Assembly (NCBI GenBank): GCA_023554245.1 | Contig: JAMJQL010000178.1 | Location: 1-64,000, forward strand | Origin: Gemmatimonadota bacterium | GTDB taxonomy: Bacteria > Gemmatimonadota > Gemmatimonadetes > Palauibacterales > Palauibacteraceae | Reading direction: 5' to 3' | DNA length: 64,000 nucleotides | In this document: positions 45,126-64,000 of the stretch, in pieces | How the letters are laid out: each line of letters opens with the position of its first letter | Numbering within the stretch: the first letter of the stretch is position 1 | Notes under the pieces: model-generated | Told to the model about the DNA's origin: nothing | The model's database searches: none | What the model saw: only the letters and a program-made list of their open reading frames with translations | Position numbers and translations under genes: made by a program

Positions 45126-45472
45126 GGGGCACGACCGGCGGAGAGTCCGGGGATCACCGTCGGACGGAAGACGCGGACCGCGTCGCGGCGGACAGGGCCG
45201 CGGTGTGGGCGACGATCCGTCTCAGACTCCGTGCCGCCCGCGACATATACGAAGGTGTCTACGTCGCGCCTTACCGCAGGGAAATCCACCGGGAGTATCT
45301 GCGCCAGCGCGACCTGTTCCTCATTCTCGGTATGTCCGACATGCTCGGGATTCCGAGCCCGGTCTCCTTCTACACGCTCGAACTGTTGCCCGACACGATC
45401 GAGAGCTTCCACGAGTGGCACATGCGGCTCGGCATGGAGCAGGCTCCGGAGGGTGGGTTCCGATGCTGTTGA
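45122..45472 (+). CDS. Small CC-terminal protein (resembles the 'cory-CC-star' family)
   Basis: 116 residues. The conserved core is RLRAARDIYEGVYVAPYRREIH, then REYLRQRDLFLILGMSDMLGIP and SFYTLELLPDTIESFHEWHMRLG, ending in -FRCC with two terminal cysteines. I recall this pattern as the family NCBI names cory-CC-star, found next to ArsA-like ATPases; function unknown. The terminal Cys-Cys could bind metal or be a recognition tail. ATG 45122 overlaps the anti-sigma stop (ATGA); GTG 45110 is an alternative. Confidence 0.75.
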   Translation: MRGTTGGESGDHRRTEDADRVAADRAAVWATIRLRLRAARDIYEGVYVAPYRREIHREYLRQRDLFLILGMSDMLGIPSPVSFYTLELLPDTIESFHEWHMRLGMEQAPEGGFRCC

Positions 45473-46440
45473 ACCGGCCGGTCACTTTCTTCGGCGGCAA
45501 GGGGGGTGTGGGCAAGACCACGATCGCCTCCGCCGCCTCTCTCGCAGCGGCTGACGACGGTCGGCGCACCTTGCTCGTCTCGACCGATCCGGCGCACTCG
45601 ACGAGCGACATTCTCGAGCTCGAGCTGGGCAACGAACCGCGAAGCGTAGCCGAGGGGCTCGACGCCATGGAGCTCGATCCCGCAGTGGAGGCAGAGCGCT
45701 ACATCGAGGAAGTGAAGCGTCGCACCGAGGATGTGGTGCCTCCCCGGCTGGTGGCGGAAGTGGAGCGGCAAATCGATGTGGCCCGCCTCTCGCCCGGTGC
45801 GGAGGAAGCAGCCCTGTTCGAGCGCTTCGCGAGAGTGCTGGAGGCATCGGCGGACTACGCGCACATCGTGTTCGATACGGCTCCGACGGGTCACACCCTG
45901 AGGCTGCTCGGACTCCCCGAATTGATGACCGCCTGGATGTCGGGCATGATTCAGCGGAGGCGGAAGGTCGGTGCCCTCGGCCGCATGTGGCGGAACGTGG
46001 CCGGCGCGGCGGCCGCCAGCGATCGGTCGGTGCGGGGTTCCTCCGGCACGGGATCACTGGAAGAGTCAAAGGATCCTGTCCTCGAGGCACTGCTGGATCG
46101 ACGCGAGCGCTTCTCGCGCGCTCGGGAAATCCTCACGGATCACGCGCACACTTCCTTCATCTTCGTCCTCACTCCCCAGCGGCTGCCGATTCTCGAGACC
46201 CGAAGGGCGATCGAGACTTTACGCCAATACGAGATTCCGATCGGAGGGCTGGTCATCAACCGGGCCGACGACGCTTTCGCAGCCGTTCCGACAGAACTGT
46301 CCGCGCTCATGCACATGGACCTGTCGAGCTGGGAGGTCCCTTCGGCCTCCGAGGAGGTCGTCGGCCTCGAGGCTCTGCGGGAACTGGGGCGAAGCATCAG
46401 ATCGACTCGAGATCCGGCGGCGGGAGGAATGGTCGGATGA
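45463..46440 (+). CDS. ArsA/Get3-family ATPase
   Basis: 325 residues, single-domain member. Deviant Walker A GGKGGVGKTT (about 11-20), switch I VSTDPAHSTSDIL, switch II region FDTAPTGHTLRLLGLP, and FVLTPQRLPILETRRAIETL. Bacterial members with one domain resemble Get3, which handles tail-anchored proteins, rather than the duplicated arsenite pump ArsA; no arsB or arsR is nearby. Overlaps the small CC protein gene by 10 bp. The cysteine pairs of ArsA metal sites are absent. Confidence 0.87.
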   Translation: MLLNRPVTFFGGKGGVGKTTIASAASLAAADDGRRTLLVSTDPAHSTSDILELELGNEPRSVAEGLDAMELDPAVEAERYIEEVKRRTEDVVPPRLVAEVERQIDVARLSPGAEEAALFERFARVLEASADYAHIVFDTAPTGHTLRLLGLPELMTAWMSGMIQRRRKVGALGRMWRNVAGAAAASDRSVRGSSGTGSLEESKDPVLEALLDRRERFSRAREILTDHAHTSFIFVLTPQRLPILETRRAIETLRQYEIPIGGLVINRADDAFAAVPTELSALMHMDLSSWEVPSASEEVVGLEALRELGRSIRSTRDPAAGGMVG

Positions 46441-48591: not shown

Positions 48592-49311
48592 CTAATCGTC
48601 CTCGTCGTCAGCCGTTCCCTCGAGGTCGGCGAATTCCGGCGGAAGCTCCTTCTCGTCGTAATAATCCAGCTTGTGCAGAGGCATCACTACGCTCGACAGA
48701 ATGTTCAGGACGTGCGCGGCGATCCGCTTGTAGAACCGGGCGCCCATGACGACCGCCGTCGCGTCGCGGGCTCCGTAGTCACTCGCTGCGACCCTTGCCA
48801 CGAGCATGTCGCACCGGTGTGTCAGACTTCGGCCCTCCCGGATCAGGTCCAGCGCCCGTTCCCGATCCGACGCCACGAACACCTCTCTGCTCTGGACGAA
48901 CGACTGTTCGACGCCCTCACGGATGGCCTGCAACTCAGCCACGAACTCGTCGTCGGGCAGCGGAAGCGGATGATACTGCCTGACTTCGGCGAGGTTCTTC
49001 GCATAGTCGCCGATCCGCTCCACATCCTTGACGAGGCTGACCAGCAGAAGGCAGTAGGGGAGAGAGGGAGTTGAGCCGGAGAGCGAAAGGTGCGCGATCA
49101 CCTGTTTGCGGATTCTGCGCTCCAGCTTGTTCACCTGGATATCGCGCTGGTACAGGCTGTTGCTGTCCGAGGGCGATACCACTCCACCGAAGAAGATCTC
49201 GCCAGCCTGTATCGTCATCTCGTACGTCAGGTTCAACATCGCCGCGAAGTTCTTTCCCATCTCCTGCAGCGGCTGGTCGGATCGAAACAGCGAGATCAGT
49301 TCCTTCAGCAT
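48592..49311 (-). CDS. PhoU-domain protein
   Basis: 239 residues, all helical. Two PhoU-type three-helix bundles: LYQRDIQVNKLERRIRKQV, then LVSLVKDVERIGDYAKNLAEV (the E/D-x3-D metal-binding motif ERIGDYAKN). The downstream position after a Na/phosphate cotransporter gene (13 bp gap) suggests it modulates phosphate uptake by that transporter. The acidic C-terminus (GTADDEDD) is probably disordered. Confidence 0.85.
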   Translation of the reverse strand: MLKELISLFRSDQPLQEMGKNFAAMLNLTYEMTIQAGEIFFGGVVSPSDSNSLYQRDIQVNKLERRIRKQVIAHLSLSGSTPSLPYCLLLVSLVKDVERIGDYAKNLAEVRQYHPLPLPDDEFVAELQAIREGVEQSFVQSREVFVASDRERALDLIREGRSLTHRCDMLVARVAASDYGARDATAVVMGARFYKRIAAHVLNILSSVVMPLHKLDYYDEKELPPEFADLEGTADDEDD

Positions 49312-49324
49312 GCTGTCCCCGGCT

Positions 49325-50497
49325 TCAGTTGAGTAGGTGATTGAGCCCCGCGAACAGCAGCGGCACTCCGTAGAACAATGCGAGCACGTAAATCAGCGCC
49401 CACCTGCGCGATTCCACCGCAATGGACGCCAGCTTCCTCGCGGCGTTCAGCGGGATCTCCCGGATCCTCGGAATCGGGTAAATAAAGAGAGTCGCCGAGA
49501 GGTTGAACAGGAAGTGAACGAGGGCGATCGTGATCCCCCACCGCGCGTTCGGGCCGGTCGCCGCAAGTGCCGCGAGAGCGGCCGTGATGGTCGTACCGAT
49601 GTTGGCGCCAATGGTGATCGGGAAGGCCTGCTCGAGGGTGATCAGGCCGGCTCCAGCGAGGGGCACGAGGAGCGACGTCGTGATCGAGCTCGACTGCACC
49701 ATGACGGTGACCACGATCCCGACGACGATCGCGAAGGCCGGCGCCTTGTACAGGCCACGGGACACGATCGTCTCTACCCGGGCCTGCATGAAGCTGCGCA
49801 TGGTCTTCACGAGCAGCATCAGGGCCAGGTAAATCAGGAGGCCGGAGACCAGAATCAGCGCCACGGCCGCCAGGCGATCGGTCGGCAGGATGGCCTGAAG
49901 CACATCCTTGATGGGTGCGACGGTAGCCTTCAGAGCTCCCTTCAGCGGACTGTCGTATTCGACGCCCCCGATGCCCGTCAGCTTTCCGGACAGCCAGGTC
50001 GCGGACTTCTGCAGGTAGCCGGTCGCCATCTCCAGCGGAAGAAAGATCGCTACCGCCAGGAAGTTGAAGAAGTCGTGGCACGTGGCCACGGCGAATGCCC
50101 GTTCGAATTCCTGACGGCGTCCCATGTGAGCCATCGAGACGAGCGTGTTCGTCACGGTCGTCCCGATGTTGGCGCCCATGACCATCGGGATTGCGTTGGC
50201 CAGCGGGAGAGGATTCGCCGGGGCCGCCACGAGGCCAACGATCAGGGAAGTCGATACAGAGGAGCTCTGCACCAGGGTCGTTGCGAGAACTCCGACCATC
50301 AGCCCCATGAAGGGATTCTCGGTGGCACGGAAGAAGGAGTCGAGCAGCCCGGCTCCCAGCGACTTGAATCCGTCTCCGAGACCGTTGACTCCGACGAGAA
50401 AGACGTAGAGCAACAGAAGTACCAGGGCCGCCCGAACCAGGGGATGGTCCAGGGGGCCACGTTCACGCGGCTCCGGTATGGTCGTCGTCTCAGTCAA
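49325..50497 (-). CDS. Na+/phosphate cotransporter (NptA/YjbB family)
   Basis: 390 residues from TTG 50497. Two inverted Na_Pi_cotrans repeats carry the diagnostic QSSS motifs: TTLVQSSSVSTSLIVG with PMVMGANIGTTVTN, and TVMVQSSSITTSLLVPLAGAG with TIGANIGTTITA. Start is uncertain; an ATG at 50614 adds 39 residues that look non-native. Operon with the PhoU-domain gene. Confidence 0.87.
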   Translation of the reverse strand: MTETTTIPEPRERGPLDHPLVRAALVLLLLYVFLVGVNGLGDGFKSLGAGLLDSFFRATENPFMGLMVGVLATTLVQSSSVSTSLIVGLVAAPANPLPLANAIPMVMGANIGTTVTNTLVSMAHMGRRQEFERAFAVATCHDFFNFLAVAIFLPLEMATGYLQKSATWLSGKLTGIGGVEYDSPLKGALKATVAPIKDVLQAILPTDRLAAVALILVSGLLIYLALMLLVKTMRSFMQARVETIVSRGLYKAPAFAIVVGIVVTVMVQSSSITTSLLVPLAGAGLITLEQAFPITIGANIGTTITAALAALAATGPNARWGITIALVHFLFNLSATLFIYPIPRIREIPLNAARKLASIAVESRRWALIYVLALFYGVPLLFAGLNHLLN

Positions 50498-50674
50498 CCC
50501 GTGTAACCGGATAGAAGGAAGTCCGGCTTGCCTCCGAGTCGTGTCGGCCGAAAGTGCGCCTTGCCGGCAGCAACGCGCAATGGTCCTCAGATAGAGGGGA
50601 TGGCAGCCATGCATGTGGCGGTTTCGGTTCCCCGGACATGTCGCCCGGCCTGCCTGTCAGGTGTCGGAATCCTC

Positions 50675-50985: not shown

Positions 50986-51666
50986 ATGCTTGCGGCAGCC
51001 TTTCTTATGACCGTGGTCGTCGCGCTGGGAGGGTATCACCTCCTCATCGAGCGACCTCGCCGCGCTCGGCTGGAGGTGCAATCCGGCGGCGCTCGTGTGG
51101 GACCGGCTCCGCTCACGGATTGGGTGGGATCGGTACCGGAGGGAATATTCCTCCAGAATGGCTTCACCTGGAGTCGCGTCGTTCCCGATGGAACGGTCGA
51201 AGTCGGCGTACACCCGATGCTCCAGGGCCTCGTCGGGGAGCAGACCCGGTACTCGCTCGCGGAGCCGGGCCAGCACTTCGATCGCGGCGATCCGATCCTC
51301 GAAATAGGGACGGGCGACAAGTCAGCTCGGGTCCGGGCACCTCTCAGCGGTAAGATCACCGCACGCAATCGATTTGCGTCGGGGAGCCTGACCGACCATG
51401 AGGCCGATTCGCTCGATCGTGCCTGGTTGTACCGCGTGCAGCCGGATGACCTCGCGCTTGATGTGCCCTCATGGATGATCGGAACGCCTGCGACGGAGTG
51501 GGCAGGCGACCGCTACGGGAGAATCAGGGAATACCTGCAGCGAGCCGTGGCCGACGGGGAGGTGGGCCTGGCCCTCGCTGACGGAGGCGAGGTACCGGTT
51601 GGCGCTCTGGCGGAACTCGATGCCGACGCCTGGTCCGAATTCGAGGCCCGCTTTCTCCACACCTGA
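50986..51666 (+). CDS. Membrane-anchored GcvH-like (lipoyl-fold) protein, paralog 1
   Basis: 226 residues. N-terminal helix (LAAAFLMTVVVALGGYHLLI) followed by basic residues, so the domain should face the cytoplasm. Residues 50-145 follow the glycine-cleavage H-protein plan: FTWSRVVPDGTVEVGVHPML, GDPILEIGTGDKSARVRAP and LSGKITARN. Lys112 sits near the usual lipoyl-lysine place, though the spacing to the PLSG turn is one residue shorter than in GcvH. The C-terminus has the ALADGGEVPVG motif shared with two paralogs downstream. GGGGAGGAG Shine-Dalgarno. Confidence 0.72.
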   Translation: MLAAAFLMTVVVALGGYHLLIERPRRARLEVQSGGARVGPAPLTDWVGSVPEGIFLQNGFTWSRVVPDGTVEVGVHPMLQGLVGEQTRYSLAEPGQHFDRGDPILEIGTGDKSARVRAPLSGKITARNRFASGSLTDHEADSLDRAWLYRVQPDDLALDVPSWMIGTPATEWAGDRYGRIREYLQRAVADGEVGLALADGGEVPVGALAELDADAWSEFEARFLHT

Positions 51667-51671
51667 CCTTC

Positions 51672-51715
51672 GGATGCGGGCGGAATCCGGGACGCTCCTC
51701 CTGATTCCGGCATCC
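51672..51715 (+). other. mRNA hairpin between paralog 1 and the ferredoxin gene
   Basis: GGATG...GGAATC pairs with GATTCC...CATCC around a 15-base loop, with a small internal loop. No T run follows, so it is more likely an mRNA processing or stability element than a terminator. Confidence 0.45.
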
Positions 51716-51755
51716 GCCCTCGATCCGCTACGCCCTGATCGATAAGGGGGCTGTG

Positions 51756-52649
51756 ATGAAGAGACGAGATGTCGTTCGGTCGTTGTGTGTCCTGGGCGGA
51801 TCAGTGGCCGTCGGCCGCGATCTGCGAGGGCACTCGAAGGTCGCACGAGCGGCCACATCTCTACCGGAGGCGACGACCGACCCGGCAGCCGAGCCCATGG
51901 CGGTGCTCGTGGACACGACCAAGTGCATGGGTTGCCGCATGTGCGAGCTCGCCTGCGCGAATCAGAACGATCTGCCGGAACCTGAGCCGAAGGTGGACTT
52001 CTCCGTACGGCGACGGACGGATGACACGCGCTTCACCGTCGTGAACCAGTACGAAACCTCGAAGGGGACAGTCAGCGTCAAGACACAGTGCTTCCACTGC
52101 CTGACACCGGCCTGTGCCTCGGCCTGCCTGACTCAGGCCATGCACAAGACCTCTGAGGGTCCTGTGGTCTGGCGAGCGGACAAGTGCATGGGGTGCCGGT
52201 ACTGCATGGTCTCCTGTCCCTTCGACGTGCCGAAGTTCGAGTACTTCAGCGCGAATCCCAGGATCAGGAAGTGTCAGATGTGCTTCGCGCGTCTGGACGA
52301 GGGCGAAGTCCCCGCCTGCGTGGAGGGCTGTCCGGCCGGGGCGACACAATTCGGAACCCGGGCGGAGATGCTCGAGGAAGGCCACAAGAGAATATGGTCG
52401 GAGCCCGACAAGTACGTCCATCGAGTCTGGGGTGAGCACGAAGTCGGTGGAACGAGCTGGCTCTACCTCTCCGCGGTTCCCTTCGAGGAGATCGGACTGC
52501 GATCGGACGTCGGCGTGGAGCCGGTCCCGGCGCTCACCAAAGAATTCCTCTACGCGGTTCCCTTCGTGATCACCCTCGTACCGCCTCTCCTTCTGGGGAT
52601 CAGCGAGGCGACACGGCGTTCGGGCGACGACACGCGAGAGGAGGTGTAG
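51756..52649 (+). CDS. Four-cluster ferredoxin subunit (HybA/PsrB/NrfC-like), Tat-exported
   Basis: 297 residues. N-terminal KRRDVVRSLCVLGG resembles a Tat signal. Cysteine motifs for four [4Fe-4S] clusters: CMGCRMCELAC, CFHCLTPACASAC, CMGCRYCMVSC, and CQMC...CVEGC. A C-terminal membrane helix (VPFVITLVPPLLLGI) is as in HybA. It carries electrons between a membrane NrfD partner and a catalytic subunit, but no molybdopterin or hydrogenase subunit is encoded here. ATG 51756 has AAGGGGG; GTG 51753 is an alternative. Confidence 0.88.
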   Translation: MKRRDVVRSLCVLGGSVAVGRDLRGHSKVARAATSLPEATTDPAAEPMAVLVDTTKCMGCRMCELACANQNDLPEPEPKVDFSVRRRTDDTRFTVVNQYETSKGTVSVKTQCFHCLTPACASACLTQAMHKTSEGPVVWRADKCMGCRYCMVSCPFDVPKFEYFSANPRIRKCQMCFARLDEGEVPACVEGCPAGATQFGTRAEMLEEGHKRIWSEPDKYVHRVWGEHEVGGTSWLYLSAVPFEEIGLRSDVGVEPVPALTKEFLYAVPFVITLVPPLLLGISEATRRSGDDTREEV

Positions 52650-52650
52650 C

Positions 52651-53910
52651 GTGGCGACGATTACTTCGCTCCAGACACGACCTTCCGGCGGACTCCGTGG
52701 ATTCGGTCGCTTCCTGCTCGGTGAGCTCAAGCCCAGGGGGCCGGTGCTGACCCCGTTCAACATCGTGACGGGAGCCCTGATCCTGGTGACGATCGTGCTC
52801 CTGACGATCCGGTTCGCGGGAGGACTGGGCACGATAACGAATCTGTCTCAGGATGTTCCGTGGGGGCTGTGGATCGGATTCGACGTGGTTACAGGGGTCG
52901 CTCTCGCGGGCGGCGCCTATGTCATCACCTTCATGGTCTACATTCTGCGCCTCGAGAAATACGAGCCGATCGTTCGGGTGACCGTTCTCAACGGCTTCCT
53001 CGCGTACGTCTTCTACGCCGGAGCCCTTCTCCTGGACCTGGGTCGTCCATGGAACGTGATCAACCCGATCATCGGCAATTCCTTCGGGGTGAGCTCGGTT
53101 CTATTCCTGGTCGCATGGCATTTCCTCCTCTACATGACGGCGGAGCTGGTGGAGTTCTCACCGGTGATCGCCGAATGGGCCGGTTGGCCGAAGCTTCGAA
53201 AGCGCCTTCACGCTCTGACCCTGGGTGCGGTGGTGCTGGGTATCACGCTTTCGACCCTGCACCAGTCGGGGCTCGGGGCGCTCTACCTGATGGCCGAGAC
53301 GAAGATTCACCCCCTCTGGTACTCGGAGTTCATCCCGATTCTCTTCCTGGTCTCCAGCATCTTCGCCGGACTCTCCATGGTGATCTTCGAGGGAACGATC
53401 ACCCACAAGGTGTTTCGGGATCGGCTGGGCCAGCCGTTGCGCGAGGGGCACGATGGAATCCTGATCGGACTCTCACGCATCTGTGCCGGGACGATGTTCG
53501 CGTATCTCGGCGTCCAGGTGATCACTTTCGTGCACCAGGGCAGGGCCGCATGGATGGGCACGGGCTGGGGCGCCTGGTACCTCCTCGAAATCGTCGGGCT
53601 CGTCGCGTTGCCGGCGGTGCTCTTCTTGGTCGGCGCTCGTCGCAGGGACACGAGGTGGATCAAATCGGCCGCGGTTCTCACGCTGGTCGGGATCATCATC
53701 AATCGACTGAACGTCACGGTCATCGGGTTCCAGTGGAATGCGCCTGTCCGATACGTACCGTCGTGGCAGGAGATCGTAGTTACGCTGGGTGTGATATCCG
53801 CCGAGATCTGGGTGTTCCGATGGGTCATCAACCGGATGCCGGTGCTGGACTTCCACGTTCGGCCGCAGGAAGGACGACCCGCGGACGCCTCTGCCGCCAC
53901 GGCGGCGTGA
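52651..53910 (+). CDS. NrfD/HybB-family membrane quinone-interacting subunit
   Basis: 419 residues, about ten helices. Typical opening: GPVLTPFNIVTGALILVTIVLLTIRFAGGLG and DVPWGLWIGFDVVTGVALAGGAYVI. Like HybB it lacks heme-binding sequence motifs and should exchange electrons with the quinone pool. Excellent Shine-Dalgarno AGGAGGT. Forms a module with the preceding ferredoxin subunit; direction of electron flow is not evident. Confidence 0.88.
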   Translation: MATITSLQTRPSGGLRGFGRFLLGELKPRGPVLTPFNIVTGALILVTIVLLTIRFAGGLGTITNLSQDVPWGLWIGFDVVTGVALAGGAYVITFMVYILRLEKYEPIVRVTVLNGFLAYVFYAGALLLDLGRPWNVINPIIGNSFGVSSVLFLVAWHFLLYMTAELVEFSPVIAEWAGWPKLRKRLHALTLGAVVLGITLSTLHQSGLGALYLMAETKIHPLWYSEFIPILFLVSSIFAGLSMVIFEGTITHKVFRDRLGQPLREGHDGILIGLSRICAGTMFAYLGVQVITFVHQGRAAWMGTGWGAWYLLEIVGLVALPAVLFLVGARRRDTRWIKSAAVLTLVGIIINRLNVTVIGFQWNAPVRYVPSWQEIVVTLGVISAEIWVFRWVINRMPVLDFHVRPQEGRPADASAATAA

Positions 53911-53929
53911 ACGGAAAGGACGCTTCGCC

Positions 53930-54685
53930 ATGTACGCCATGGTTCAGCCCGAGCTGTTCGGAACGAAGGGCATCGAATACATCGTCGTCATCAGTTTCCT
54001 GCTGCTCCTCACGGTCGCCTGGCAACTCATTCGGGCGCCGAAAGTTGCGGTGTCCGAGTCACATCGGGAGAGGGAGGCGGACTGGAGAAGCCTTCTCCGT
54101 GGGGTCGCTCTTCCGGGCAACGGTGTGTTCTTTCACCCGGGGCACTCCTGGGCCCGCATGGCAGGAAGCGACGGAGAGGTCGTGATCGGCTGGGACGATT
54201 TTGCGCGCCGTCTGATCGGCCCGCCCGACCGGATTCAGCTACCGCCCGAAGGCACACGGCTGAGTGCGGGCGGACCGGCATGGACGATTACCGCCGGGGG
54301 GCGGGAACTGCCGATGGTCTCGCCGGTCGACGGGGAGGTGGTTCAGCTCAATGATCGGGTGATCGACGAGCCCTCGACGGCGAGTCGAGACCCGTATGGC
54401 GATGGCTGGTTGATGAGGGTGCGTGTTCCTTCCATCGAGCCTGTGCGTCGAAACCTCCTCACCGGCAGCCTGGCTCGCTCGTGGGCGGAAATGGCGGAGC
54501 GGTCGCTCCAGGGGCTCGCAGTCAGCGCGCCGGAAAGCGCGCTCGGGGCCGTACTGGCCGACGGAGGAGAGCCCCGATTTGGACTGGCACGAACTCTCGC
54601 CCCCGAGGACTGGGAGGAGATCGTGCGCAGCTTCCTGCTCGTCTCCCCGATGGATGTCGCGGAAGACGAGAACGTAAAGGCTTGA
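53930..54685 (+). CDS. Membrane-anchored GcvH-like protein, paralog 2
   Basis: 251 residues. N-terminal membrane helix (EYIVVISFLLLLTVAWQLI) followed by RAPK, giving a cytoplasmic domain. The H-protein-like domain has FFHPGHSWARMAGSDGEVVIGWDDFA, which is close to real GcvH, then MVSPVDGEVVQLN. Arg125 occupies the place of the lipoyl lysine, so lipoylation is not expected. Shared paralog motifs: GWLMRV and VLADGGEPRFG. Directly follows the NrfD gene. Confidence 0.78.
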   Translation: MYAMVQPELFGTKGIEYIVVISFLLLLTVAWQLIRAPKVAVSESHREREADWRSLLRGVALPGNGVFFHPGHSWARMAGSDGEVVIGWDDFARRLIGPPDRIQLPPEGTRLSAGGPAWTITAGGRELPMVSPVDGEVVQLNDRVIDEPSTASRDPYGDGWLMRVRVPSIEPVRRNLLTGSLARSWAEMAERSLQGLAVSAPESALGAVLADGGEPRFGLARTLAPEDWEEIVRSFLLVSPMDVAEDENVKA

Positions 54686-54736
54686 GAAGCGCACCGGCTG
54701 AGTCGTCCGATCGTCCCAGCAGGCGAGGGGGGACCG

Positions 54737-55522
54737 ATGAATCGAAGCGAATCTGCGAATCCGAATTCGGAGCTCCCGTGCGTGTGGTCACTGGCGGGGG
54801 TGCTCGGTATGCATCCGTGCGACCGGGAATACGATTGTGACAGCTGTGAGCTCTATCACGCCCTCTCCGGAGGTCACGCAATCGACGATGAGTCGGCGGT
54901 GCGGTGTCCGAATCTGTCCCAGACTCAGCGGCGTCTGGAGGCCGAAGTGGGCCAGTTTGTCTCGCAACTCCTGGCCGGCTGTCGCCTGGACCTCGGTCGT
55001 TGGTACGGAGGAGACGGTGTGTGGGCTCGTCCAGCAGGCGATTCCAACGAGCTCGAAGTCGGCCTGGTCGGCTGCGTCTGGAGGATACTGGAGCCCGTCG
55101 AGGAAATCGTCGCACCTCGCACCGGAGTCAGCTTCGAAGAGGGCGAGACGTGCGGCTGGCTGCTTCGGTCGGAGCGGGCGATCCCCATTCGTCTTCCGGT
55201 AGGAGGCACCGTTACGGAGGTCAACGAACCGCTGGTGGACGAGATCGGAGGGTCGGGACACGTGGATGGACGCGACAATTGGCTGTTTCGCGTCCGAGCG
55301 GCGGTTCGGCCTTCCGAGGTGCCGAGACTGTTCCGGGGAGAAGATGCGCTGATCTGGCACCTGCGCAGGCTTCGAATCCTGAAGAGTCACATCCGCGGCG
55401 CGCTCGATTCGGATCGCCTCCAGCTGGGTGCCGTCATGGCCGATGGAGGGGAGCCACAGCTGGATCTCGAGAGAGTACTCGGACCGGACCGCTTCGCCGC
55501 CATGATCGACGCCCTGTTCTGA
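54737..55522 (+). CDS. Soluble GcvH-like protein with N-terminal cysteine cluster, paralog 3
   Basis: 261 residues, no membrane helix. The first 40 residues hold Cys15 and then CDREYDCDSCELYH (C-x5-C-x2-C), a possible metal or iron-sulfur site. The GcvH-like part (about 85-185) has VWARPAGDSNELEVGLVG, LLRSERAIPIRLPVGGTVTEVNEPL; Arg147 replaces the lipoyl lysine. Paralog motifs NWLFRV and VMADGGEPQLD are present. Strong Shine-Dalgarno. Unknown function. Confidence 0.72.
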   Translation: MNRSESANPNSELPCVWSLAGVLGMHPCDREYDCDSCELYHALSGGHAIDDESAVRCPNLSQTQRRLEAEVGQFVSQLLAGCRLDLGRWYGGDGVWARPAGDSNELEVGLVGCVWRILEPVEEIVAPRTGVSFEEGETCGWLLRSERAIPIRLPVGGTVTEVNEPLVDEIGGSGHVDGRDNWLFRVRAAVRPSEVPRLFRGEDALIWHLRRLRILKSHIRGALDSDRLQLGAVMADGGEPQLDLERVLGPDRFAAMIDALF

Positions 55523-55573
55523 GCTCGAGGGAAACGCAGGCACCTTCCCGCGTCAGTCCCGTCCGCTGGACTT

Positions 55574-55589
55574 CGGCACGTATTCTGCT
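55574..55589 (+). promoter_or_regulatory. Candidate sigma-54 promoter for the sensor-regulator genes
   Basis: CGGCAC-GTATT-CTGCT against TGGCAC-N5-TTGCW: GG and GC ten bases apart, two mismatches. It lies about 84 bp before the kinase gene. Confidence 0.4.
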
Positions 55590-55672
55590 GCGCTGAGCGG
55601 TCGTCGGAGGGCCCCGCTCCGCGCCAACCGGACCCGGGTGCGGCAGGCCCCTACGAAACACAGAGGACTCAC

Positions 55673-57361
55673 ATGGCCTCCTCGTCCTGGCCCACGAGAA
55701 TCCGCTCGTCCCTGAGCGCTCGCCTCTTCGTCGTGCTCCTCGGCGCCGTACTGCTGATTCTGCTCGGCAATCACCAGATCGCCAACTGGATTCGGACGCG
55801 AGTGGTGCAGGAGGAGGTGCTCTCCGGAGCGGAGCGGGCGAGCACCTTCCTCGAGGGAAGCCTCCTCACCGAGATGGCCGAGAACAACCGGCAGCACATC
55901 GACGACGCGATTCGCAGCCTCGGTGAGGGGCCGGACGTCGTCGGAGTCCGGATCTACAACAAGCGAGGAGAAGTCGCGTTCTCCTCAGACTCGGCTGAGC
56001 TCGGTACCCGCGTCGACATGCAGGCGGAGGCGTGTTTCGCCTGCCATGAGACGGAGCTCCCACTTTCGTCACCCAGCATCGAGGATCTCTCCCAGATCCA
56101 CGTGCACGAAGCCGGCTTTCGAGTACTGCGACTGATTACGCCGATCCGGAACCGTCAGGGATGTGCCGATGCCTGCCACGTGCATGACCAGGATGACACG
56201 GTGCTCGGCGTACTGGATGTCCAGATGTCCCTCGCCAAGACGGATGCGGCGATGCTCCGTGCGGAGCGATCCAGTCTCGCGATCGGAGTGGCAATCGCCC
56301 TGCTGCTAGGAGCCGCCCTGGCCTTCATCGTACACCGTGGTGTGCACCAGCCCACTCGCCAGTTGATCAGGGGTACGGAGGCGCTGGCGGCCGGCGACCT
56401 CGACATCCGTATTCCCGAGGAACGAACCGACGAGCTCGGACAGCTGGCGGACTCCTTCAATCGAATGGCCGGCAGTCTGAAGCAGGCGAACGACGAACTC
56501 AGGCACTGGTCCGACACTCTCGCCGAGAGGGTACGAGACAAGACGCAGGAACTGGCTGCGATACACAAACAGATGGTGCAGGTGGAAAAGACCTCTTCAC
56601 TGGGCAAGATGGCGGCGACCGTCGCCCACGAGCTGAACAATCCGCTCTCCGGGATCCTTACCTGTTCGCGGCTGGTGGCTCGCAAGGTGGAGCGGGAGAT
56701 GCCGCCGGGTGAGGCCCGCGAGAGAACGCTCGAGAACCTCGAGCTGATCCGTTCGGAGTCGGTCCGCTGCGGCAACATCGTGCGCGACCTGCTCACGTAC
56801 GCGCGGGAGGGCACGCACGAGCTGGCCCCGGAGCACCTTCATTCCCTGGTCGATCATGCGATCAGCCTGATGGGCCATCACATGCAGCTCAGCGAGGTGG
56901 AGCTCCAGACGGACCTGGCCCTCGAGGACGACGAAGTCGTCTGCGACGGCGAACAGATCGTCCAGTCTCTGCTGGCGCTGATGATCAACGCGATCGAGGC
57001 GATGCCGGAGGGGGGAAGTCTCACTCTGACCACGGGTTCCGATCCGACCGACGACCGCTTCGTGCGACTCGGCGTAGCGGATATCGGCTCCGGCATTCCA
57101 CCCGAAGTCAGGGACCGCATCTTCGATCCCTTCTTCAGCACGAAGAACGAAACCAAGGGTGTCGGGCTCGGTCTGGCCGTCGTATTCGGAATCGTTCGCC
57201 GGCATGGGGGAGAGATTCTGGTCGATTCGGCACCCGGCAAGGGGACCACCTTCACGCTGCGGCTGCCCAGGCAGCCCACCCGGCCCTACCGGCCGGAATT
57301 CGAATCGGTCGCTGTCGCAGCCGGCAGCGGTACGGCCGCGAGGAGATCTGATGAGTCATAG
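55673..57361 (+). CDS. Sensor histidine kinase with two c-type heme motifs in its periplasmic domain
   Basis: 562 residues. Membrane helix 1 (VVLLGAVLLILLG), periplasmic sensor (about 45-200) with CFACH at 121-125 and CADACH at 164-169, helix 2 (AIGVAIALLLGAALAFIVH), HAMP domain, phosphoacceptor VAHELNNPL (His319) and ATPase boxes NAIEA, DIGSGIPPE, FSTKNETKGVGLGLAV. The CxxCH and CxxxCH motifs suggest covalent heme, so redox or gas sensing is likely. Overlaps its response regulator by 11 bp, which argues they are partners. Confidence 0.9.
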   Translation: MASSSWPTRIRSSLSARLFVVLLGAVLLILLGNHQIANWIRTRVVQEEVLSGAERASTFLEGSLLTEMAENNRQHIDDAIRSLGEGPDVVGVRIYNKRGEVAFSSDSAELGTRVDMQAEACFACHETELPLSSPSIEDLSQIHVHEAGFRVLRLITPIRNRQGCADACHVHDQDDTVLGVLDVQMSLAKTDAAMLRAERSSLAIGVAIALLLGAALAFIVHRGVHQPTRQLIRGTEALAAGDLDIRIPEERTDELGQLADSFNRMAGSLKQANDELRHWSDTLAERVRDKTQELAAIHKQMVQVEKTSSLGKMAATVAHELNNPLSGILTCSRLVARKVEREMPPGEARERTLENLELIRSESVRCGNIVRDLLTYAREGTHELAPEHLHSLVDHAISLMGHHMQLSEVELQTDLALEDDEVVCDGEQIVQSLLALMINAIEAMPEGGSLTLTTGSDPTDDRFVRLGVADIGSGIPPEVRDRIFDPFFSTKNETKGVGLGLAVVFGIVRRHGGEILVDSAPGKGTTFTLRLPRQPTRPYRPEFESVAVAAGSGTAARRSDES

Positions 57362-58697
57362 AAAGCCACGAATCATGATCGTGGACGATGAACGTTCCGT
57401 GAGGGAATCGCTCAGAGAGTGGTTCCTCGAGGACGGATTCGAAGTCGTCACGGCGGAAGACGGTCTGGACGCCTTGAAGAAGCTCGATTCGGACCCCTTC
57501 GACCTCCTGGTCGTGGATCTCAAGATGCCCCGAATGGACGGAATCAGCCTTCAACGCAGACTGCGCGAGACCCATCCCGACTTGACGATCATCATTCTGA
57601 CGGCTTTCGCCTCGGTCGAGACCGCCGTCGAGGCGCTCAAGCTCGGGGCTTTCGACTATGTGACGAAACCGGTGGATCCGGACGAGCTCAGCCATACGGT
57701 CAGGCGGGCTCTGGAGCGGAAGCAGCTCACCGATGAAAACGCACGGTTGCGTGACAAGGTCACCCAGCTGGCGACGGCGGCTCCCATCGTGGGAAGCAGT
57801 CGTGGCATGGAGCGAGTGATGGAACTGGTGGGAACGGTCGCGGAGACGGATGCGAGCGTCGTGATCCGCGGAGAGAGCGGCACCGGCAAGGAGCTGATTG
57901 CCCGCGCGATCCACGGAGCCAGCCCGAGACGGTTCTTTCCGATCGTGGCGGTCAACTGCGGAGCGATTCCGGAGACGCTGCTCGAAAGCGAGCTCTTTGG
58001 CCACGAAAAAGGCGCGTTTACCGGGGCGCACTATCGAAGGAAGGGGAAGCTGGAGCTCGCGAATGGAGGAACCCTGTTCCTGGATGAAATCGGTGAGATC
58101 CCGGCGAAGATGCAGGTCGATCTCCTGCGGGTCCTGGAATCTCATCGATTCAACCGGCTGGGAGGTGCGCAGGAGATCGAATCGGATTTCCGGCTGGTAT
58201 GTGCGACAAACCGTGATCTCGAGGCACTCGTCAAAGAGGGCCGATTCCGGGAAGACCTGTACTACCGGATTCACGTGTTCTCCATAGAGATCCCTCCGCT
58301 CCGCGAGCGCCGGGAAGACATACCGCTGCTCGTGGAGCACTTCGTGGAGAAGCTCTCCCGGTCGATGGGCAAGCCCTCGAAGCAGTTGAGCGAAGAGTCG
58401 GAAGAGCTGCTGCAGGCCTACGACTGGCCTGGCAACGTTCGGGAACTGGAGAACGCGATCGAAAGGGCAATGGTCATCGGAACGACGGACTCGATCCGCC
58501 CGCAGGATCTGCCACTCCAGGTCGAACAGGAAGGGGGCACGCCGCGCGACCGTTCCCTCGAATCACTCGAATCGGAGCACATAGCTCGCGTGCTGCGAGA
58601 GGAATCGGGCAATGTGTCGCAGGCTGCCCGCGTACTGGGGATCGATCGCGGAACTCTCTACAACAAGATCAAGAAATACGGGATCCGATCCGGGTGA
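57351..58697 (+). CDS. NtrC-family sigma-54-dependent response regulator
   Basis: 448 residues. Receiver domain with Asp12/Asp13 and phosphoacceptor Asp56 ([11 protein letters not shown]) and KPVDPDE; AAA+ domain with GESGTGKEL (about 170), the sigma-54-contacting GAFTGA loop (about 222) and LFLDEIGE; C-terminal Fis-type helix-turn-helix [19 protein letters not shown]. Fully equipped to activate sigma-54 promoters. ATG 57351 lies inside the kinase end. Confidence 0.95.
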
Positions 58698-59245
58698 AGC
58701 CGGAGATCCTGCTGGCGCACCTGGGGAGCTTCCGGCCGACGTGGTCGGAAGAACTGCGCCGTCGGGTGGCCGCGGCGACAGACCATTTCGTTCGTGCCGA
58801 GCCCCTCGGTATTGATCTCGCGCCCTTCTATGCCCCCGAACGGCAGCAATATCACGCCACGCTCCTGCTCGCGGAGCTGCTTCGCCATCTGCCCGCCTCG
58901 GGCGGCAGGATCGTCGGAATCACGGCGGAGGATCTGTTCATTCCCGTGCTCACCTTCGTGTTCGGGCAGGCCCAACTGGGAGGTCCGGCCGCCGTCGTGT
59001 CTGTGATGCGTCTGCACACCGAGTTCTATGGTCTGCCCACCGACGAACGACTCCTGGTCGATCGAGCGGTCAAGGAAGTCGTACATGAGCTCGGACATGG
59101 CTTCGGGCTGGTCCATTGCCCGGACAGATCCTGCGTGATGTCGTCCTCCACCTATGTCGAAGACGTCGACCTGAAGAGCGAGCGATTCTGCACGGAATGC
59201 TCGTCCCTGCTGGTTGCCGGGTCCGCGACCACGCCGCATACCTGA
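58694..59245 (+). CDS. amzA: Archaemetzincin-family zinc protease
   Basis: 183 residues. The diagnostic motif HELGHGFGLVHCPDRSCVM (about 132-150) gives the catalytic zinc site plus the first two structural cysteines; CTEC follows for the second zinc. RIVGITAEDLFIPVLTFVFG is the family's central strand. Biological role of bacterial archaemetzincins is unknown. GTG start overlaps the response-regulator stop (GTGA), so its synthesis is coupled to that regulator. Confidence 0.92.
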   Translation: MKPEILLAHLGSFRPTWSEELRRRVAAATDHFVRAEPLGIDLAPFYAPERQQYHATLLLAELLRHLPASGGRIVGITAEDLFIPVLTFVFGQAQLGGPAAVVSVMRLHTEFYGLPTDERLLVDRAVKEVVHELGHGFGLVHCPDRSCVMSSSTYVEDVDLKSERFCTECSSLLVAGSATTPHT

Positions 59246-62662: not shown

Positions 62663-64000
62663 TCAGCCCGCGTAGAGATCGATGATTCTCTGGATCGCCC
62701 GCCGGCATACGTGACAGAAGAACTCGGCCCGGGTGAACATGATGCAGTCGATCTCGGACCGGTACAGCCCTCGCGCCTCGTACATCGCCCCTTCGAATGC
62801 GCCCACCCGATTCGCGAACTGCATCGCCGAGAGCAGCTCCCTCTCGATCTCGCGCTGCCGGGCGAACAGGTCGTCGAATTCCGACTCGGGGGCCGTGCGC
62901 TCAACCAGTGCCCTCCGCTGGGCCCGAATCCGGTTGGAATGCTCCTCGTATGCTGCTTTTCCCCACGGAGTGGGAATCGGGGTGCTAGGCGTGACCAGGT
63001 CTCCCCACTTGAGCCCCTCGGGATCATGCAGGGCGGTCACGTTGGGCTCCCATGGCTCCGGGTGCGTTTCACCCCCCGTTTCGTAAGACACGTCCGAGGT
63101 GTAGTACTCGTCGGCGAGCCCGGCGAAATGGTGTCCGAATTCGTGGACGAACACGTAATCGGCGAACTCGGAATCGACGGCCACCGTTGACTGGAAATTG
63201 AAGATCCCGCCTCCGCCGTATTGCTTCTCGTTCACGAGAATCTCGACGAACTCGTAGGGCACGCCGGACAGGGCTTCCCTGAGGGCTCGATTGTCGAGCG
63301 TGAGCAGATACCGCTCCGAATCGAAAATGTTGAACTCGGTCGACAGGGGGGTGCGCCGGAACTCTCCGACATGCGGTCTGTTCACGCCCGGGCGCTCGGC
63401 GGGCACGAATACGGCCAGTACGTTGAAGTCACTCTTGCGGGCGCGAAACGGTTCGGTCTCGAACAGCGCTTCGCTCAGGCGTCGGGCATCTGCCAGGAAC
63501 TTCGATTCCTGCTCGGGCGTGTATCCCTCGCCGACGAGCACGAGATCCACCTTCTCGGAAGGCGGACCGCTCTGAAAGAGCGTGTGCACCGGACCGCCCG
63601 GGCCTCTGTCGGCGGCGTTGATGAACCTCGACCCGGGATCGACGACGGTCTCCCAGATCTGAGCGAACGCGCGCGGTCCGGTCCGCCTGTGCAGGATCAC
63701 CCTGATCGGTCTCAGGGGCCACGGGAAGCGCAACGACTCGTGAAACGTCCTCTGCAGCTGCGCCGCTTCGGCCGTAGTCTCCCACTCGCCGTAGATCGAT
63801 GCGAAGCCACGCGAGTACAGCAGAGCACCGCTGTCGGCGTCCCGGACCTCGAAGCGGAACTTGCCCATGTTCGACTCGTCGACGAGCCGGTCGCGGGGTC
63901 CTGCCCACGGACCGTCGGAGACCACACGGTCGAGGCTGATCACCTCCAGCTCCGCTGATCCCGTGTGGAAGTAATCGACGCGCATCGTTCGATCGGCGAA
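62663..64000 (-). CDS. M64-family metallopeptidase, N-terminus outside window
   Basis: At least 445 residues are in the window; the frame is still open at 64000 and the sequence just before Met at 63985 (FADRT) matches the conserved run into RVDYFHTG of this family, so the true start and signal peptide lie upstream. Zinc motif VHEFGHHFAGLADEYY with the distal Glu-Tyr; FQSGPPSEKVDLVLVGEGYT is also conserved. M64 includes the IgA-cleaving enzyme of Thomasclavelia, but environmental members are general secreted peptidases. C-terminus has FFCHVCRRAI with two cysteines. Confidence 0.9.
   Translation of the reverse strand, partial: FADRTMRVDYFHTGSAELEVISLDRVVSDGPWAGPRDRLVDESNMGKFRFEVRDADSGALLYSRGFASIYGEWETTAEAAQLQRTFHESLRFPWPLRPIRVILHRRTGPRAFAQIWETVVDPGSRFINAADRGPGGPVHTLFQSGPPSEKVDLVLVGEGYTPEQESKFLADARRLSEALFETEPFRARKSDFNVLAVFVPAERPGVNRPHVGEFRRTPLSTEFNIFDSERYLLTLDNRALREALSGVPYEFVEILVNEKQYGGGGIFNFQSTVAVDSEFADYVFVHEFGHHFAGLADEYYTSDVSYETGGETHPEPWEPNVTALHDPEGLKWGDLVTPSTPIPTPWGKAAYEEHSNRIRAQRRALVERTAPESEFDDLFARQREIERELLSAMQFANRVGAFEGAMYEARGLYRSEIDCIMFTRAEFFCHVCRRAIQRIIDLYAG

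Follow-up and report, generated by a model that had tools for sequence, protein, structure and literature searches.

The Hmc complex of Desulfovibrio (HmcABCDEF), the HybA/HybB pair of E. coli hydrogenase-2 and the Qrc complex (QrcABCD) are the described systems closest to the locus analysed here. Hmc contains, beside HmcB, HmcC and HmcD, the 16-heme HmcA, the cytochrome b HmcE and HmcF. In hydrogenase-2, HybA, a tail-anchored, Tat-type 16-Cys ferredoxin, and the NrfD-type subunit HybB, whose quinone and proton residues have roles assigned in PMC8076601, serve HybOC. Tail-anchored Fe-S/HybB-like pairs have also been described in combination with octaheme cytochromes, Hmc or FeFe hydrogenase (PMC10924467); these modules share the FeS/quinol-oxidase pair with our locus but none contains a GcvH protein, a kinase or an archaemetzincin. 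The GcvH fold itself is common to the glycine cleavage H protein, to LbpA of sHdr sulfur oxidation and to the locus.

We class the locus with the NrfD complexes of the Hmc, Hyb and Qrc kind, as a variant in which some subunits derive from GcvH and a dedicated set of control genes is added. An initial sequence-only reading had called it undescribed and its parts not usually described together. We found no publication in the open-access literature that describes the whole gene set, which upholds this in part; the core nevertheless parallels HmcB-C-D, and related sets also accompany Qrc complexes and c3/c7 cytochromes.

Gene layout and the FeS-NrfD core

Within the 64,000-nt window (the whole stretch of DNA analysed, from a genome of 2.93 Mb) we confirmed eight tightly packed ORFs on the + strand at 50986–59245, and the short gaps and overlaps and the domains are as first read. 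Domains were assigned with Pfam/NCBIfam models, and all three GcvH-like proteins exceed the GCV_H cut-off of 22.2 bits. The genes are:

50986..51666, +, GcvH1: N-terminal membrane anchor, predicted cytoplasmic GcvH-like domain and C-terminal 'ADGG...W..F' tail (PF01597, 35.1 bits)
51753..52649, +, HybA/HmcB-type ferredoxin (FeS): twin-arginine-like N-terminus, four 4Fe-4S Cys sets and C-terminal tail anchor (NF045715 HmcB, 316.8 bits)
52651..53910, +, HybB/HmcC-type NrfD quinone/proton membrane subunit (PF03916, 56.9 bits; NF045714 HmcC, 398 bits)
53930..54685, +, GcvH2: HmcD-like membrane segment (F.TKG.EY) fused to a predicted cytoplasmic GcvH-like domain (PF01597, 61 bits)
54737..55522, +, GcvH3: soluble GcvH-like protein with a four-Cys N-terminal motif, C-x-W...C-D-R-x-Y-x-C-x-x-C (PF01597, 22.6 bits)
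55673..57361, +, sensor histidine kinase: two TM segments, periplasmic domain with CFACH and CADACH, HAMP, HisKA and HATPase (Pfam/NCBIfam domains, motifs)
57351..58697, +, NtrC-type response regulator: receiver, sigma-54 activator AAA+ and Fis HTH (Pfam/NCBIfam)
58694..59245, +, archaemetzincin with full HExGHxxxLxHCx4CxMx16CxxC zinc motifs (NF033823, 157.1 bits)

The intergenic distances are, in order, 86, 1, 19, 51, 150, −11 and −4 bases, and most starts are preceded by purine-rich, RBS-like stretches. The ferredoxin starts at GTG 51753 or ATG 51756, and the regulator probably at 57351 rather than at the longer GTG at 57159. The start of the archaemetzincin overlaps the regulator stop by 4 bases, in agreement with the earlier description of an NtrC-type regulator and a coupled zinc protease. 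The source genome encodes a single archaemetzincin and, outside the locus, one ordinary GcvH. Elsewhere in the window lie an ArsA-type ATPase (45205–46440, +), a Peptidase M64 family protein including its N-terminal domain (62663–63985, −) and, divergent from the module, a PhoU-domain protein with a Na/Pi cotransporter (48592–50614, −). We rejected a phosphate link through this last pair, which does not recur beside related loci, yet Bacteroidota GcvH1 proteins carry a PstS-like domain.

The best NCBIfam matches of the FeS and NrfD proteins are HmcB and HmcC, with scores under the respective equivalog cut-offs of 420 and 550 bits. The order and types of FeS, NrfD and GcvH2 parallel HmcB-HmcC-HmcD, and GcvH2 directly follows NrfD as hmcD follows hmcC. 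In contrast to Hmc, the locus lacks HmcA, HmcE and HmcF, none of which is conserved around homologs, its HmcD-like protein bears a GcvH domain, and it adds two more GcvH-like proteins and the kinase-regulator-archaemetzincin block. Compared with HybA/HybB, the pair shows 26–39% identity, HybO and HybC are not nearby, and GcvH proteins and control genes are added. The window NrfD is also distinct from QrcD (78 bits against a cut-off of 570), and QrcA and QrcB are missing.

All 16 cluster Cys residues of E. coli HybA are invariant in the FeS proteins, and residues 264–284 of the window protein form the hydrophobic C-terminal tail. Ten diverse NrfD sequences keep without exception Asp109 and Ser129 of the HybB quinone site, Arg89, Tyr99, Tyr141, Glu148, Glu155, His184 and Ser186 of the N-side channel, and Lys198, Glu291 and Arg329 of the P side. 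Glu133 of the quinone site is not conserved in the module proteins. At the level of sequence, this conservation is in line with the quinone-linked redox module that had been proposed. The FeS and NrfD domains were found and no catalytic ORF is present in the locus, as first described for a HybA/HybB-like pair without a catalytic subunit.

GcvH-like proteins

A single hydrophobic segment lies at the N-terminus of both GcvH1 and GcvH2. Positive charges flank it on the C-terminal side only, and the GcvH-like domains of the two proteins are therefore predicted to be cytoplasmic; GcvH3 has no hydrophobic membrane segment. Together with the Pfam hits, these topology signals agree with the three paralogs, two of them anchored and predicted cytoplasmic, of the initial reading. 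All three proteins score under the gcvH equivalog cut-off of 115.85 bits. The lipoyl-Lys position is occupied by Asp in GcvH1 and Gly in GcvH2 in the alignment, and by Glu in GcvH3 as read from the sequence. Since every GcvH paralog of the window lacks the lipoyl Lys, lipoyl carriage is unlikely. The site lacks Lys in all 26 GcvH2 orthologs taken from across phyla and in all 12 Bacteroidota GcvH1 proteins, and Gly stands there in 104 of 182 GcvH domains from the module. The proposal had been that these proteins act as scaffolds or carriers; the missing Lys in GcvH1–3 and in the GcvH2 orthologs favors the former and argues against the latter. Compared with the glycine cleavage H protein and LbpA, the module proteins are thus without the lipoyl Lys and have membrane anchors and a C-terminal tail, and the locus contains no sHdr genes.

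A F-x-T-K-x-x-E-Y motif precedes the GcvH2 membrane segment, and its T, K, E and Y are invariant in 26 sequences. The segments of 20/26 GcvH2 orthologs match the HmcD model NF045712 in register (best E 1.2e-5), and that of one Desulfobacterota-type relative reaches 33.1 bits (cut-off 34). Because the membrane segment matches HmcD in most orthologs, we read GcvH2 as an HmcD-like anchor fused to a GcvH domain. The window's own GcvH2 segment alone gave no score against HmcD, which counts against the Hmc-like reading. The predicted GcvH2 structure has a pLDDT of 83, and its first PDB matches are GcvH structures.

The Bacteroidota counterparts of GcvH1 consist of a signal peptide, a periplasmic PstS-like domain, a TM segment and GcvH, an architecture that supports a cytoplasmic location of the GcvH domain. 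Receiver-GcvH proteins, TM-bearing and soluble, are found in L092, L132, L152, L156 and L228. Both kinds of fusion, receiver or PstS-TM, take the place of GcvH1 or adjoin that place. The four-Cys motif of GcvH3 is common to 18 proteins in the loci examined. A separate group of ~390-aa open frames with GcvH-like matches occurs elsewhere in the phylum, mostly in one genus (G197, G094, G312, G142, G289, G247, G222 and G065; L064–L071). The module itself points to a probable role outside glycine metabolism for a large set of proteins with matches to glycine cleavage H models.

Recurrence of the gene set and its control block

A scan with an NrfD alignment, using one genome per species, confirmed at least 577 relatives, of which we read the best 80. 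These come from Gemmatimonadota, Bacteroidota (the majority), Ignavibacteria/Chlorobiota, Acidobacteriota, Planctomycetota, Lentisphaerae, Krumholzibacteriia and Deltaproteobacteria. Genes were counted in the 38 of these 80 loci with at least 3.5 kb of upstream and at least 6 kb of downstream flank. FeS is present in 37/38, an upstream GcvH in 33/38, a downstream GcvH in 35/38, the kinase in 34/38, and the regulator and the archaemetzincin in 33/38 each. The plain order GcvH-FeS-NrfD-GcvH-kinase-regulator-archaemetzincin occurs in 28/38 loci, and in the source genome's own family the order GcvH1-FeS-NrfD-GcvH2-GcvH3-kinase-regulator-archaemetzincin is exact in every sufficiently long contig. 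The kinase-regulator-archaemetzincin block is divergent in two loci and upstream in two; as it stays together there, its linkage survives rearrangement. The initial reading had named absence of co-location in other genomes as its refutation; co-location was found instead, the archaemetzincin being present in 33 loci and the order exact in 28. The cluster is far beyond chance, as its order recurs across phyla and the archaemetzincin co-occurs. Clustering of all neighbour ORFs around homologs gave no further family in more than five loci. The module is known from several phyla mostly through metagenome-assembled genomes, and it is also present in cultured Maribellus strains; its function is therefore testable.

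Several related loci differ in their redox parts. Two consist of a Qrc complex with a GcvH-like gene directly downstream and with kinase, archaemetzincin and regulator genes, in that order, on the flank; their QrcD proteins score 569.9 and 589.5 bits (cut-off 570). Qrc-type and Hmc-like versions lie side by side in L232 (2386–14828), each with a kinase, a regulator and an archaemetzincin. Small c7- or c3-type cytochromes adjoin FeS-NrfD in L152, L155, L156, L228, L294 and L296. A cytochrome with 13 heme motifs and a cytochrome-b-like gene are divergent to the module in L294 (5040–7734) and L296 (9112–11881), both from Desulfobacterota-type genomes. Divergent NrfD subfamilies have the same neighbours in L225–L227, L230 and L231.

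The locus contains a two-component pair with heme-type motifs, in keeping with the control by a sensor system that had been suggested. The periplasmic domain of the kinase carries the CxxCH motif that marks c-type heme sensor kinases, and from this motif heme binding is predicted. Of the two c-type heme motifs first reported, one is canonical (CFACH); the second, CADACH, is CxxxCH, and a second motif of the CxxxCH or CxxxxCH type is kept in 56/61 homologs. The sigma-54 gene (rpoN) is present in the source genome alongside the NtrC-type regulator of the locus. In related loci most intervals were not enriched in sigma-54 promoters over shuffles, and sites upstream of the first gene showed a slight excess (4/54 vs 0.26). 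We set sigma-54 promoters aside as evidence of autoregulation, since this enrichment is not convincing.

The archaemetzincin (M54) exceeds the curated NF033823 cut-off of 145. Inspection of the window protein identified the zinc sites HExxHxxGxxH and CxxxxCxM...CxxC, and the zinc motif is kept in 47/48 homologs from related loci. PF07998 archaemetzincins are present in 30/394 genomes of a phylum sample, in 15/16 genomes with a strong GcvH2 match versus 15/378 others (Fisher p ~5e-18, not corrected for kinship). G220, which has a short GcvH2 match and no adjoining NrfD, was left out of this count; with it the figure is 16/17. The regulator directly adjoins 25 of 30 archaemetzincin loci examined in a Bacteroidota sample and more than half of the archaemetzincins read in Acidobacteriota. 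The best-scoring archaemetzincins of the Deltaproteobacteria-type phylum are mostly solitary. As such genomes hold many archaemetzincins without an adjoining regulator, we rejected the protease as a universal marker of the module; the solitary proteins (L234–L255) apparently form a different clade. We found no function for bacterial archaemetzincins in the open-access literature, and the module gives them a recurrent genomic context.

Proposed electron transfer, sensing and gating

We consider it an even prospect that the module is an Hmc-like oxidoreductase between menaquinone and a periplasmic carrier, in which domains derived from GcvH serve for docking or gating in the cytoplasm and a heme-sensing, sigma-54-based system provides dedicated control. 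By homology, the periplasmic, tail-anchored four-cluster ferredoxin likely moves electrons between a soluble periplasmic carrier and NrfD-bound menaquinone, and protons likely pass through NrfD. The carrier would be a c-type cytochrome in several relatives and is here presumably encoded outside the locus. The GcvH-like domains would carry no lipoate and may instead bind to the cytoplasmic face of NrfD, as a docking element, a cap or a gate. The heme-type kinase would sense whether the pool of the periplasmic carrier is oxidized or reduced and drive the NtrC-type regulator, which would switch sigma-54 genes, and the archaemetzincin may act in the cytoplasm as the pathway's dedicated protease, turning over or activating one of its components. 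No cytochrome or catalytic subunit is found among the genes of the locus, which counts against this explanation, as do the HmcB and HmcC scores under the curated cut-offs and the unconvincing sigma-54 promoter enrichment. The cytochromes and Qrc complexes of related versions support electron transfer from periplasmic cytochromes to menaquinone as a general theme.

The same cytochromes and Qrc complexes, which fit respiratory electron flow, weigh against a different function, that of a redox sensor formed by all the genes together. In this reading the kinase heme domain would receive electrons from the quinol pool through NrfD-FeS, and the GcvH-like proteins would be adaptors in signalling. A pure sensor would also have no need of the HybB proton-channel residues, which are conserved. 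This function remains a credible minority reading, as the locus lacks a catalytic subunit, conservation of the control genes (kinase, regulator, protease) in the locus is close to that of the redox core, and the fusions of GcvH to receiver or PstS-TM parts are built like sensors.

Such fusions also bear on the oxidoreductase reading, since the receiver-GcvH proteins suggest that docking or gating by GcvH could in some lineages be under direct phosphorylation control. It is conceivable, though unlikely, that lipoate-less GcvH domains were recruited as signal-controlled gates of NrfD subunits, controlled by phosphorylation or by a PstS ligand and with the archaemetzincin as a dedicated protease. 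If GcvH domains do gate NrfD subunits, respiratory energy conversion would fall under direct phospho-control.

A catalytic subunit is neither encoded in the locus nor conserved beside homologs in the 80 related loci, so that the HybA/HybB-type pair might serve a periplasmic dehydrogenase or reductase encoded in trans, as HybAB serves HybOC, with the GcvH-like proteins assembling or recruiting the partner. We regard this as improbable, since no constant partner was found at any of the ~80 loci and the partners of E. coli HybAB are encoded next to HybAB. It is very improbable that the GcvH-like proteins act as genuine carriers through a covalent site (lipoyl or other) that is shifted or of another kind, given that the site lacks Lys in each of the GcvH2 and Bacteroidota GcvH1 proteins counted above, although the window GcvH1 has a Lys one residue off the canonical position and Lys is aligned in 10 of the 182 module domains.

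In L299 (9339–15944) and L298, a regulator-archaemetzincin-GcvH block adjoins a 1471-aa HdrA-like flavoprotein, and the upstream genes read like corrinoid/CODH genes. These two loci are possibly a cytoplasmic, electron-bifurcating version of the module set.
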